Source: Candidatus Thorarchaeota archaeon (GTDB taxonomy: Archaea; Asgardarchaeota; Thorarchaeia; Thorarchaeales; Thorarchaeaceae). From it: 20,899 nucleotides of DNA. How positions within the stretch are numbered: position 1 is the stretch's first letter; each line of letters starts with the position of its first letter. This document shows positions 3,462 to 17,922 of the stretch, in pieces. The DNA lies in contig JAEORG010000354.1 of the NCBI GenBank assembly GCA_016841005.1, forward strand, positions 1-20,899, in the 5' to 3' direction. Under the pieces are notes generated by a model. The model ran no database searches and was not told the DNA's origin. It saw only the letters and a program-made list of their open reading frames with translations. A program made the translations under genes and the position numbers.

Positions 3462-4232
3462 ATGATTAGTGATGATGAGAAAGCTACAGATGATGACATT
3501 CAGAATTTACCATTTGATCCATTGAAGGTCATAATATTACAGATTTTTCTTGTGGTTCTGACGTATGTCCTCATCCCAAACGACCGATTTCTATCGTATC
3601 ACTATCGCGACATCCTATACATACCAATATCTTCGACAAGTGGACTCAGACTGATGTTGATTCCAGTGATAGTGGGATTTGTCATATATTTTGCAATTGA
3701 ATGGACAATTGATGAATTAATGGAAAGTCTATGGGTAGCATGTTCCTTTGTTTTCATATCGTTTCCTGTAATCCCTCTCTGGCAATATTATGGTTGGGGA
3801 GAATCGCTGTATTTGGAAGAGATGTTTGTATATGGTTTGAACTCGACTTGGTGGCCTGTAATTCAGGGAATGGGTCTGGCTATCTTGATTATTGTGAAAC
3901 GAGAATCTGAGTATGCTGAACAGGGAATTGAAATGAGGAATATGAAGAATGATGTTTTTGCGTTATCGTTAGGAGGTGCTATCCTATCGGGATATTCGAT
4001 TGTACAAATTGCTCGTCCAGATGGTATACACTTCCGTCCAACGCCATTTACTGCTATGACACTAGTTACAGGAATGATTGTCTGTATTTTGTCAGTAATT
4101 ATACCAATAGCTAGATGGAGTATCTCATATTGGAATAACAGAAGCAGATTCAGGTCGAGAAGAGATTTATCAACATCGGAGATAGAAAACAACTCATGTA
4201 CTATGGAAAGCTTGTCTGTCTACGACCGCTAG
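3462..4232 (+). CDS. Polytopic membrane protein of unknown function
   Basis: A 256-aa protein with about six hydrophobic helices (roughly residues 25-40, 62-79, 88-106, 129-145, 165-184 and 198-219), an acidic N-terminus and a basic Arg/Ser-rich C-terminal tail. I recognise no family and no catalytic or transport motif. The start at 3462 is set by GGAGG upstream; the ATG at 3452 hits a stop after five codons. The last 37 bp overlap the next gene, a GNAT acetyltransferase, which suggests the two are translated together. Confidence 0.75.
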   Translation: MISDDEKATDDDIQNLPFDPLKVIILQIFLVVLTYVLIPNDRFLSYHYRDILYIPISSTSGLRLMLIPVIVGFVIYFAIEWTIDELMESLWVACSFVFISFPVIPLWQYYGWGESLYLEEMFVYGLNSTWWPVIQGMGLAILIIVKRESEYAEQGIEMRNMKNDVFALSLGGAILSGYSIVQIARPDGIHFRPTPFTAMTLVTGMIVCILSVIIPIARWSISYWNNRSRFRSRRDLSTSEIENNSCTMESLSVYDR

Positions 4233-4765
4233 AGTTGTCAGATCTTGATGATATTGTCAAATATCAGAATGACTGGAAGCTTCGAAGGTGGTCCGGTGTT
4301 CCATTACCTAAATCTCGTTGTTCAGTAGAAGAGTGGTTAGAGAGAACATCGGTTTCGAATCCAATAAACGATAGCAAAATGGTTTTGGCTATTACAGACA
4401 AGAAGAGTGGAGCATTCATTGGGATAACTCGATTTTATGATATGAAAGTACCACATTATAGAGCCTGTCTTGGAATAGGAATTCAGAATCCGGATAATCG
4501 ATCAAGAGGGTACGGGACAGATGCCACCTTAGTTATGCTCTGGATTGCATTCAATGTACTTGGTCTTCACAGTGTATATCTTGACACAATGGAACATAAT
4601 GAACACGCGATTCATGTCGCAGAAAAGGCAGGCTTCAAAAGAATTGGAATCTTTCGAGAAACAGAATTTATTGATGGAGAGTTCAAAGGACTGGTCTATT
4701 TTGACATTCTTAGCAGTGAGTTTTTTGAGAATTATCCACCAGGTGTCCTGATTGGGAAACCGTAG
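4196..4765 (+). CDS. GNAT-family N-acetyltransferase (RimJ/RimL-like)
   Basis: A 189-aa acetyl-CoA-dependent acyltransferase. It begins with the LRPLELSDLDDI segment of the RimJ/RimL subgroup. The acetyl-CoA pyrophosphate loop R102-S-R-G-Y-G-T108 fits the R/QxxGxG/A rule, and HNEHAIHVAEKAGFKRIG (about 134-151) is the conserved C-terminal motif. The acceptor, protein N-terminus or small molecule, cannot be told. It starts inside the end of the membrane-protein gene. It converges on the microprotein operon, with only 19 bp between its stop and the end of the last small ORF. Confidence 0.88.
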   Translation: MYYGKLVCLRPLELSDLDDIVKYQNDWKLRRWSGVPLPKSRCSVEEWLERTSVSNPINDSKMVLAITDKKSGAFIGITRFYDMKVPHYRACLGIGIQNPDNRSRGYGTDATLVMLWIAFNVLGLHSVYLDTMEHNEHAIHVAEKAGFKRIGIFRETEFIDGEFKGLVYFDILSSEFFENYPPGVLIGKP

Positions 4766-4784
4766 GAGAGAGAAAGAGTTGTGC

Positions 4785-4907
4785 TTACGTAGCTTCTAAC
4801 GCGAGCACATCATTAAGGGTCATTTCATCATCCTTGCGGGATGAGTGAGTATGTACTGAACTATCTGTCGAGCCTACAGATTTAGTATCAAGCGACTGGG
4901 TCTTCAT
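4785..4907 (-). CDS. Microprotein 3 of a three-gene operon (40 aa)
   Basis: A 40-codon ORF that starts with MKTQSLDTKSVG, is rich in Ser, Thr and Asp, and ends in an acidic/hydrophobic helix-like stretch (MTLNDVLALEAT). The AGGAGG made by the last codons of microprotein 2 lies 8 nt before its ATG, an ideal Shine-Dalgarno. Its first residues (KTQSL) echo the KTQALA/STQALA core of the other two. An in-frame extension upstream exists only as read-through of gene 2's opposite frame, so I take the internal ATG. I do not recognise a family. It may be a divergent relative of its neighbours or a partner of them. Confidence 0.55.
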   Translation of the reverse strand: MKTQSLDTKSVGSTDSSVHTHSSRKDDEMTLNDVLALEAT

Positions 4908-4914
4908 CGGAGAA

Positions 4915-5010
4915 TTACCTCCTGAAGTAGACCTGAGCAAGTGCCTGGGTTGAAACCTCGTTCTTAGGGACTTTGTCCTTAGGATGTAGGTTGTACTTAG
5001 CAAGTGCCAT
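4915..5010 (-). CDS. Microprotein 2 of a three-gene operon (31 aa)
   Basis: A 31-codon ORF that begins MALAKYNLHPKDKVPKNEV and continues STQALAQVYFRR. It resembles microprotein 1: both open with MALA, have a short basic polar middle and end in a TQALA-x-x-Y-x-R helix, so they look like tandem paralogues. GAGGT at the stop of gene 1 is its Shine-Dalgarno, and the two genes are only 5 nt apart. No Cys, signal peptide or membrane segment is present. Function is unknown; peptide ligand, regulator or ribosome-associated peptide are all open. Confidence 0.6.
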   Translation of the reverse strand: MALAKYNLHPKDKVPKNEVSTQALAQVYFRR

Positions 5011-5015
5011 GATTA

Positions 5016-5120
5016 TTACCTCACAACAGTTCTGTAAGCGTATGCTAGAGCCTGGGTCTTTACGACCTCAGGATTGCTTTTCTTCATATGTCGAGTCCGG
5101 TTATTAGTTGCCAGAGCCAT
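5016..5120 (-). CDS. Microprotein 1 of a three-gene operon (34 aa)
   Basis: The first gene of the micro-operon, 34 codons. It opens MALATNNRTRHMKKSNPEVV, continues KTQALAYAYRTVVR, and is strongly basic. The TATATATA box at 5153-5160 would place the transcript start about 10 nt before this ATG, a near-leaderless arrangement that fits the lack of a clear Shine-Dalgarno here. Its end (GTG AGG TAA) supplies the ribosome site for gene 2. Similarity to gene 2 in both N-terminal MALA and C-terminal TQALA-x-x-Y supports coding. It lies downstream of an EamA transporter gene on the same strand, but has its own promoter. Confidence 0.6.
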   Translation of the reverse strand: MALATNNRTRHMKKSNPEVVKTQALAYAYRTVVR

Positions 5121-5152
5121 GATATTTCACAAGAATTACTACTCAGAATTAG

Positions 5153-5160
5153 TATATATA
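5153..5160 (-). promoter_or_regulatory. TATA box of the microprotein operon
   Basis: TATATATA read leftward, preceded by the GC-containing stretch TGGCTTCGC. With usual archaeal spacing (about 25 nt) transcription would begin near 5130, 10 nt before the first small ORF. It is the clearest TATA box I see in the window. Confidence 0.7.
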
Positions 5161-5222
5161 GCGAAGCCACTTCTTAGGGTCACGAATTAAGGTCACAATT
5201 TGTTACTATGATTTAGTCAATT

Positions 5223-6167
5223 CTAATCATCAGATTCAATGGTTTCTAAAGGGTCTTTTTCGCCATTTTGCCCTCGAGCATATCTATGAGTCAAGACAAC
5301 TCCAGTAATTGTAAATGCCCCACCAAGTAGTTGTAGTATCGACGTGGGTTCATTCAAGATGAGAACAGACATGAGAACACCCCAGACCGAGATGAGATTT
5401 AACGCGATTTGGACTCGTGAAGCCTCTATATACCTCATAGATTCATAGTACAGAATGAAGGCCAATACAGAATTGATTATTCCGACCCACAGAACGATCA
5501 TCCATGTTGTAAGACTCAGTTGGGTCAATATCGAGAGATCCTCAAATATTGCTGCAGATATCCATATGCAGGGTACTGCGGCTATTGTACTGAATGCAGT
5601 AACTGATATTGAATCGACTTCACGCATCGCAATCTTACCGGCAATTCCGTTGATTGCAAAAAGAAATGTGGATACTACAATAATCAGGTCTCCTAAAATT
5701 CTGACAGGTCCGAGTCCAGTATCTAAAGGAGCTCCTCCAATTACTATGAATGAAACTCCCAGAGTAGCAAGCAAGAGACCTCCAATCTTATCCATCGTGA
5801 TTTTCTCATTTAGAAGTGGTAGAGCTAGAATAACAGCAAAAACTGGGCTCATGTTCAGAAGTAACAGTGTTTCTCCTGCTGTTGTTATTCCAAGACCAAT
5901 ATATTGTAGAATCTGGGATAGAAATGGACCTGCCATTCCAGCAATCAGAATGGATTTCCAGTTCAGCCGAGATTGTTTCAGATTGTCTGATCGATTTCTG
6001 GAAGTCAGAACAAGTAGGATAAGAAAAGGAACTGCAATAGTATAACGAAGTGCCACAAAGATGATGGGTGTCAATTCGGCATAGGCAATTTTTGCGAGTA
6101 TCAATGAAGATGACCAAAACATCGTAGTAAAGATGATTGCAACCCATGCTAGAGTGGATTTCTTCAT
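5223..6167 (-). CDS. EamA/DMT-family transporter
   Basis: A 314-aa drug/metabolite-transporter protein with ten predicted helices in two EamA repeats (roughly residues 8-140 and 160-292). Recognisable segments are WSSSLILAKIAYAELTPIIFVALRY in the first repeat and the helix pair around ILILNEPTSILQLLGGAFTITGVVL in the second. Members usually export small metabolites or amino acids; the substrate here is unknown. It follows the nucleotidyltransferase-fold gene by 37 nt and is probably the last gene of that three-gene run. The C-terminal tail is acidic and cytoplasmic. Confidence 0.9.
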   Translation of the reverse strand: MKKSTLAWVAIIFTTMFWSSSLILAKIAYAELTPIIFVALRYTIAVPFLILLVLTSRNRSDNLKQSRLNWKSILIAGMAGPFLSQILQYIGLGITTAGETLLLLNMSPVFAVILALPLLNEKITMDKIGGLLLATLGVSFIVIGGAPLDTGLGPVRILGDLIIVVSTFLFAINGIAGKIAMREVDSISVTAFSTIAAVPCIWISAAIFEDLSILTQLSLTTWMIVLWVGIINSVLAFILYYESMRYIEASRVQIALNLISVWGVLMSVLILNEPTSILQLLGGAFTITGVVLTHRYARGQNGEKDPLETIESDD

Positions 6168-17814: not shown

Positions 17815-17922
17815 TGGCGGGCTCGGCGGGATTTGAACCCGCGGCCCGTCCCCGCATTAGAGAACATTCTCTCATACTTCAGGTTAAAAGCCTGCTGCGC
17901 TACCTAGCTGCGCCACGAGCCC
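17815..17922 (-). tRNA. tRNA-Lys (anticodon UUU) with an intron
   Basis: The cloverleaf is clear: acceptor GGGCTCG/CGAGCCC, D-stem GCGC/GCGC with an AGCTAGGTA loop, anticodon loop CTTTTAA, T-arm GCGGG-TTCAAAT-CCCGC, discriminator G and an encoded CCA. Removing 31 nt (17849-17879) between positions 42 and 43 gives a 77-nt tRNA with a perfect anticodon stem GCAGG/CCTGC and a 5-nt variable region. An RNA box CGTTTTACG lies about 25 nt upstream (17942-17950). The intron site is discussed separately. It could be misread as a class II tRNA, but the TTT anticodon argues against Leu or Ser. Confidence 0.88.
17849..17879 (-). other. tRNA-Lys intron at a non-standard site (about 42/43)
   Basis: Archaeal tRNA introns mostly sit at 37/38. 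Here the anticodon arm is intact and the extra bases follow it. The intron can fold into TAT-x-AGAGA / TCTCT-x-ATG around an ATGT loop. Exon CCTG pairs with CGGG (four bp) with 3-nt bulges AAG and GAC, which is a bulge-helix-bulge shape recognised by the archaeal splicing endonuclease. The bulge model would remove 29 nt (17849-17877) and the cloverleaf model 31 nt, so the exact 5' junction is uncertain. Confidence 0.65.

Follow-up and report, generated by a model that had tools for sequence, protein, structure and literature searches.

Microprotein operons dispersed in Thorarchaeota behind a common promoter and linked to MFS exporters and a PadR-like regulator

The window is the whole 20,899-nucleotide stretch of Candidatus Thorarchaeota DNA that was analysed. 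Three ORFs of 34, 31 and 40 codons (ORF A, ORF B and ORF C), all read leftward behind a TATATATA box as the initial annotation had described, were confirmed at positions 5120-4785. The whole unit is wider than the three ORFs, as it reaches upstream to 5206 with an operator and downstream to about 4780 with a hairpin. The features of the locus are as follows.

5223..6167, minus strand: EamA transporter, the upstream neighbour, ending before the window's promoter
5178..5206, minus strand: class-I operator GTAACAAATTGTGACCTTAATTCGTGACC, palindromic GTNAC...GTGAC plus a further GTGAC, fitting the family pattern
5153..5160, minus strand: TATATATA box, with a conserved GTGGCTTCG just before it (consensus of 81 promoters)
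5016..5120, minus strand: ORF A, 34 aa, cationic, with a predicted C-terminal helix; ATG at 5120, stop at 5016
4915..5010, minus strand: ORF B, 31 aa, cationic paralogue of ORF A
4785..4907, minus strand: ORF C, 40 aa, acidic family, ending VLALEAT; ATG at 4907, stop at 4785
4780..4809, minus strand: terminator-like RNA hairpin spanning the last codons and the stop of ORF C, with a T-rich run after it
4196..4765, plus strand: GNAT acetyltransferase (Acetyltransf_3), the convergent neighbour, recurrent but not constant

The gap between ORF A and ORF B is 5 nt, and that between ORF B and ORF C is 7 nt. A Shine-Dalgarno-like GTGAGGTAA overlaps the stop codon of ORF A, and a Shine-Dalgarno-like AGGAGGTAA overlaps that of ORF B. 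In the program-made list of ORFs the frame of ORF C opens earlier, at an upstream TTG, and gives 72 aa. MALA and TQALA-x-x-Y are common to ORF A and ORF B in the window, and the earlier view of the two as tandem paralogues is supported.

The window's ribosomal protein S7 was used to collect 38 comparison loci with up to 85% identity, which by title comprised 33 Candidatus Thorarchaeota, 2 Lokiarchaeota, 2 'archaeon' and 1 Woesearchaeota. In a tBLASTn comparison, A and B were found in the same order and place in S7-linked loci of relatives, with C in several of them, and the A-B(-C) order recurred in other Thorarchaeota at loci linked to S7 as well as elsewhere in the chromosome. A Thorarchaeal group of 46 genomes (G001-G046) was delimited by S7 identity among the 74 genomes of the S7 comparison; well-matching S7 sequences were at least 72% identical in this group and no more than 61% in the others. 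No S7 match was obtained for five of the 46, and fragments only for one; these six were assigned to the group by list position. A profile built from 19 A/B sequences (A1) was run on 149 genomes. Matches at E ≤ 1e-3 were obtained in 43 of the 46 Thorarchaeota-like genomes and in the unplaced G047, a small genome outside the S7 comparison, while the best E in the remaining 102 genomes was only 0.24. Up to 14 matches per genome were recorded at E ≤ 1. The weak Thorarchaeal genomes were G002, G034 (E 0.04) and G044 (E 0.004), and in G002 the promoter is retained, together with a degenerate A and an MFS gene.

The copies have a common promoter, GTNACANNNTGTGAC-N8-GTGNCC...TATATAC. The pattern GTNACANNNTGTGACN8GTGNCC gave 131 matches in 43 of the 74 genomes, and the reversed control pattern gave 0 among the matches listed for the same 74. 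All but one of the 43 promoter-bearing genomes lie within the Thorarchaeal group of 46, the exception being G055. Among 87 loci in which the start of ORF A could be delimited, the start lay 86 nt downstream of the start of the pattern in 81, the window included, with 85 nt in five and 99 nt in one. Across the 81 promoters there was a strong consensus, which included GTGGCT and TATATAC. For the comparison of neighbourhoods, part of the 131 matches was left out and promoters identical over the first 110 nt were merged, giving 116 distinct promoters, the window's included. A/B micro-ORFs were present behind 89 of these and C behind 30, and a further 12 drive a gene for a bactofilin-like (4) or membrane protein (8), without micro-ORFs. 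A variant of the operator, with a GTGACC-like first repeat and GTGGCC or GTGCCC as the second, was seen at 16 loci in 15 genomes (L118-L133); it lies directly 5' of a bactofilin-like or multi-pass membrane protein gene at 12 of the 16, and at the other four the gene was cut off or not assigned. At one locus of G055 (L134), outside the Thorarchaeal group, a class-I operator precedes an MFS2 relative with no recognised micro-ORFs. This suggests either that the link between operator and exporter predates the micro-ORFs or that it was acquired by transfer.

Purifying selection acts on A and B. A single alanine is invariant in 93 of 93 B genes and is written with all four codons (GCA 42, GCT 32, GCG 13, GCC 6), and a similar third-position freedom was found at the conserved Thr, Ala and Tyr of A. 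The dN/dS values over non-overlapping pairs of close sequences were 0.31 for A (29 pairs), 0.24 for B (22 pairs) and 0.42 for C, the last from 4 pairs only. Values over all pairs (A 0.58, B 0.66, C 0.77) were set aside, as these pairs had been picked by synonymous distance up to saturation. Conservation, codon pattern and dN/dS rule out chance ORFs, and from the conserved order and the synonymous excess in relatives (for ORF C in those four pairs) all three ORFs look to be translated, as had been proposed. They look like genuine genes of the kind that ordinary annotation tends to miss, since the family is present in many Thorarchaeota copies, behind one strikingly fixed promoter and often directly before pump genes. 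The constraint is similar with and without an MFS gene behind the unit (A: 0.29 with, 0.31 stand-alone; B: 0.29 with, 0.21 stand-alone), which argues that the A and B peptides themselves are the product.

ORF C has a double nature, with constraint of both the protein and the RNA kind. The VLALEAT-stop end is encoded within the hairpin and is followed by the T-rich run (TTT in 28 of 29), while the Leu and Thr/Ser just before the hairpin show protein-type conservation. The hairpin was counted in 29 of the 30 C sequences; L090, annotated as C without a hairpin, was left out. Over these 29 distinct sequences 83% of cells were paired, compared with 27-46% when the pairing was slid by one to three positions. 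Column shuffles gave a mean of 79.6% and a maximum of 81.6%, and 0 of 1000 reached the observed 83%, an excess that is small and uncontrolled for kinship. The pair formed by the third position of the Val codon and a base after the stop varies on both sides, being GC in 18 sequences, AT in 6, GT in 3 and TA in 1, with one unpaired. Part of the conserved end of C is accounted for by the RNA hairpin and the T-run. The window's own hairpin, at -12.8 kcal/mol, is weaker than that of most relatives. Gene finders call C proteins in a few sources (7 clusters with the window's own). The six other C proteins start MKTESL, MKTESF, MNTESF, MKTETL, MHPDYS and MKTDAF, and these differing starts exclude the KTQSL start of ORF C as a sign of paralogy with A and B; the resemblance is incidental and not a family feature.

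The median net charge is +5 for A, +6 for B and -2 for C. This opposition would suit intracellular microproteins that assemble together, basic A/B with acidic C, on nucleic acid, the ribosome or a membrane, with the exporters merely sharing a stress promoter, and the use of the operator for bactofilin-like and membrane genes would agree with it. However, C was not found in any of the 40 exporter-linked units, and the best conserved part of C is the RNA hairpin. We consider co-assembly unlikely.

The exporter-linked units were defined by a same-strand MFS gene among the two nearest downstream ORFs, in a clustering of neighbours that was restricted to ORFs of 100 codons or more and took in one on the upstream side and two on the downstream side. 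Such a gene was found at 40 of the 116 promoters, 17 with MFS1 (PF07690, PF05977) and 23 with MFS2 (PF07690); the other 76, the window included, had none there. In 10 of the 17 MFS1 units the exporter gene starts 8 nt after the last micro-ORF, B. When the search was started from MFS1 instead, micro-ORFs were found upstream at 19 of 23 loci, at one of these with no better than E 0.05. Among the four loci without them, L244 and L250 are fragmentary and lack the 5' end, and L245 and L247 are real misses.

The short distance to MFS1 fits cis-acting leaders, in which a drug or metabolite would cause ribosomal stalling or slow termination at the C-terminal motif of A and B and thereby control translation or transcription of the downstream exporter. 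The conserved motif in the last 13 residues, the overlap of the next ORF's Shine-Dalgarno sequence with the stop and the further recurrent hairpins within MFS2 leaders agree with such a mechanism. Leaders of the Erm/Bmr type act in cis and have their functional residues near the C-terminus, and A and B are like them in being short ORFs near the start of a resistance or pump gene with conserved residues near the C-terminus. They differ from them in that most A/B copies, the window's included, stand alone, with no MFS gene after B or C, and are nevertheless under equal constraint. The N-terminus of A (MALxxNN) is conserved too, which also speaks against a leader. Erm leader peptides are reported ahead of drug-resistance genes (PMC5118997). 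In the window no regulated gene follows the micro-operon, the next gene being the convergent GNAT. Cis-acting leaders, the main rival, therefore fit the exporter-linked units but not the stand-alone type of the window, and overall we regard them as unlikely.

Several elements were seen in the exporter-linked leaders. MFS2 leaders have in common a strong hairpin element that consists of CTCCTATCTCC and, after it, a GC-rich stem around GCAGCGG...CCGYTGC. This element carries a Shine-Dalgarno-complementary CTCCT and lies between B and MFS2 at L097, L104, L147, L148, L161, L168, L171 and L181. A second element of about 70 nt, TGGTCAC..TGGTCACAGA..TGGTCAGTTAGTCTCAGAAAC.GCATATC.TGTGACCA, was found between the micro-ORFs of exporter-linked units at L039, L099, L147, L161, L182 and others (35 leaders compared). 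It falls within an ORF of about 42 codons in several loci, and is a candidate RNA structure, operator or peptide. A search of Rfam at E ≤ 1 in nine loci with exporter-linked or related units (L097, L104, L147, L161 and L171 among them) gave no known RNA family.

An exported or modified peptide had been suggested on the basis of the GNAT and EamA neighbours. Export gains from the MFS genes, which stand behind the same promoter in the 40 units, but not from EamA, which occupies the nearest upstream position at only 3 of the 116 loci (the window and two others) and lies before the promoter; a link to EamA is not supported. A GNAT of the window's family (43-58% identical) does recur, being one of the two nearest downstream ORFs at 12 of the 116 loci, the window included. 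In ten of the 11 other loci it follows an intervening gene, and eight of these ten have the same upstream neighbour, so the recurrence largely reflects one orthologous site. Support for a link to the acetyltransferase is thus only partial, and a modified peptide stays conjectural. The peptides might be secreted as archaeocins or signals and exported by the linked MFS pumps, after the manner of leaderless two-peptide bacteriocins, which are tandem cationic peptides with ABC export. A and B are likewise tandem, short and cationic, with no signal sequence as judged by eye, and have a co-transcribed transporter in part of the cases. The transporter is, however, of the MFS and not the ABC type, and MFS pumps rarely move peptides of 30 residues. 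Most units have no pump, and no modifying enzyme of the kind that would accompany a RiPP precursor recurs generally among the nearest ORFs, apart from the GNAT at the 12 loci. No candidate immunity gene was recognised in the clustered neighbourhood, which comprised two ORFs downstream and one upstream, each of 100 codons or more. The sequences are moreover homogenised, not diversified, within the two genomes compared (see below), and secretion is on balance improbable. Predicted antimicrobial peptides have been reported in Asgardarchaeota, in an article whose main text does not contain 'Thorarchae' (PMC13321764).

A second type of unit has no class-I promoter and is divergent to a PadR/ArsR-like HTH protein, the match to PadR being just above the cut-off. 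This PadR-like regulator was present in 29 of 46 genomes searched for it, 30 of which belong to the Thorarchaeal group; the 29 are 28 of these 30 and G063. A divergent micro-operon was found at 26 of 30 regulator loci, 23 of them with C; the misses were the non-Thorarchaeal G063, two copies in G010 and a short locus of G031. An operator derived from the regulator-facing units, GTTNG-N5-CAAACCTTTATA, gave 8 matches in 7 of 16 genomes, and 0 when reversed. Six of the eight sites lie before micro-operons, one inside an MFS2 leader and one (in G002) before a degenerate A-like ORF. In the G063 locus (L212), outside the Thorarchaeal group, the regulator faces a VWA-domain-like protein (by eye) and no microproteins, with a similar GTTTGT..ACAAAC repeat between the two genes.

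Six upstream neighbours of the micro-operons are each common to 9-11 genomes, which indicates that the sites are old. G003 and G005 have four sites in common, as judged by neighbours. Their copies nevertheless group by genome and not by site (100/100 support), with 88-98% identity within a genome and 81-85% between the two. The flanks of the common sites are 60-73% identical upstream and 46-84% downstream, compared with 48-51% for different sites; at two of the sites the downstream flank no longer shows the orthology, since its identity overlaps that of different sites. We read this as concerted evolution, in which copies at common sites have probably been homogenised within each of the two genomes compared. 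Such homogenisation of tiny protein operons is unusual, and it points to the importance of dosage or of an identical product. Near-identical copies scattered through a genome might also be left by a mobile or selfish repeat carrying the ORFs as passengers. Copies at orthologous sites across species disfavour a mobile element, as does the clear coding constraint, and this origin appears very remote.

No Pfam or PHROGs family was matched by 35 A/B members at E ≤ 0.1, NCBIfam gave one weak entry (E 0.065), and no relative was found among PDB sequences. The window's C matched no Pfam family. A type II toxin-antitoxin system was rejected, as no known toxin or antitoxin family was matched by A/B (Pfam, NCBIfam and PHROGs) or by the window's C (Pfam only). 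The conserved C-terminal motif of A/B is ST-x-A-[ILV]-x-Y-A-Y-x-Y-R-R, and the N-terminal side is basic and variable. In a structural model of ORF A a C-terminal helix is predicted at residues 17-33, with a second, low-confidence helix at 6-13; confidence was limited over the whole model (mean pLDDT 67, pTM 0.29) and higher for residues 21-30 (mean pLDDT 84). The YR ends were considered as a proteasome-type HbYX end, and this idea was dropped because most members end in YRR or VVR. Lineage-specific families of small proteins are known from comparative genomics as short, conserved and easily missed by annotation. The present family differs from others of that kind in its rigid common promoter, its within-genome homogenisation and its exporter/regulator regulon.

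The best explanation, which we hold tentatively and at close to an even chance, is that A, B and C act in trans as effector or regulatory microproteins of an efflux or stress regulon and dock on a common partner by the C-terminal helix. The window holds one copy of a transcription unit that is dispersed in multiple copies through Thorarchaeal genomes. A stress or drug signal would act through the common operator-promoter (GTNAC-N5-GTGAC-N8-GTGNC ... TATATAC) to switch on one to seven units per genome, and each unit would typically make the two cationic microproteins A and B by translational coupling. Units end in one of three ways: with the acidic C, as in the window, whose last codons also form the terminator-like hairpin; with an MFS exporter; or directly after B. 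The second unit type faces the PadR/ArsR-like regulator. The microproteins would act in trans, the C-terminal helix of each docking on the common partner. Weighed against this trans-acting reading are the presence of MFS1 (E ≤ 1e-60) in only 20 of the 74 genomes and the position of the motif next to the stop, which also fits a ribosome-arrest leader. The 76 of 116 promoters with no MFS gene nearby, the 12 that drive a bactofilin-like or membrane gene, the four pairs behind the dN/dS of C together with the RNA share in its conserved end, and the limited confidence of the ORF A model count on the same side.

The peptide peTrpL is a bacterial product of 14 residues from a single trp attenuator gene, whereas the Thorarchaeal A and B are unrelated to it in sequence and form a multicopy operon family. 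In Sinorhizobium this very short leader-type peptide is reported to be linked to multidrug efflux and to act in trans (PMC7298713); A and B resemble it as very short peptides tied to efflux, and action in trans is our proposal for them. Among the open PMC papers found by the searches, as judged by title and the start of the abstract, no description of the A/B/C family was found.

It seems possible that Thorarchaeota have a dedicated regulon of homogenised, multicopy, trans-acting operons with a PadR-like regulator and two operator types, which governs or accompanies drug or stress efflux. If true, such a microprotein regulon would be a layer of Asgard physiology without a counterpart in the families and papers searched. 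Asgard archaea are the closest known prokaryotic relatives of eukaryotes. The analysis adds to them a conserved small-protein family tied to two operator types, a regulator and two pump families, and provides testable targets in a lineage with few known regulons.

Two further features were observed elsewhere in the window. At 17818-17922 on the minus strand, a 105-nt tRNA was detected by Rfam and missed by ARAGORN, and its length suggests that it contains an intron. At 2409-2771, also on the minus strand, lies the gene of a protein of 120 aa that has SH3-type domains, with two PF07653 stretches; a flavodoxin-like gene is its neighbour.
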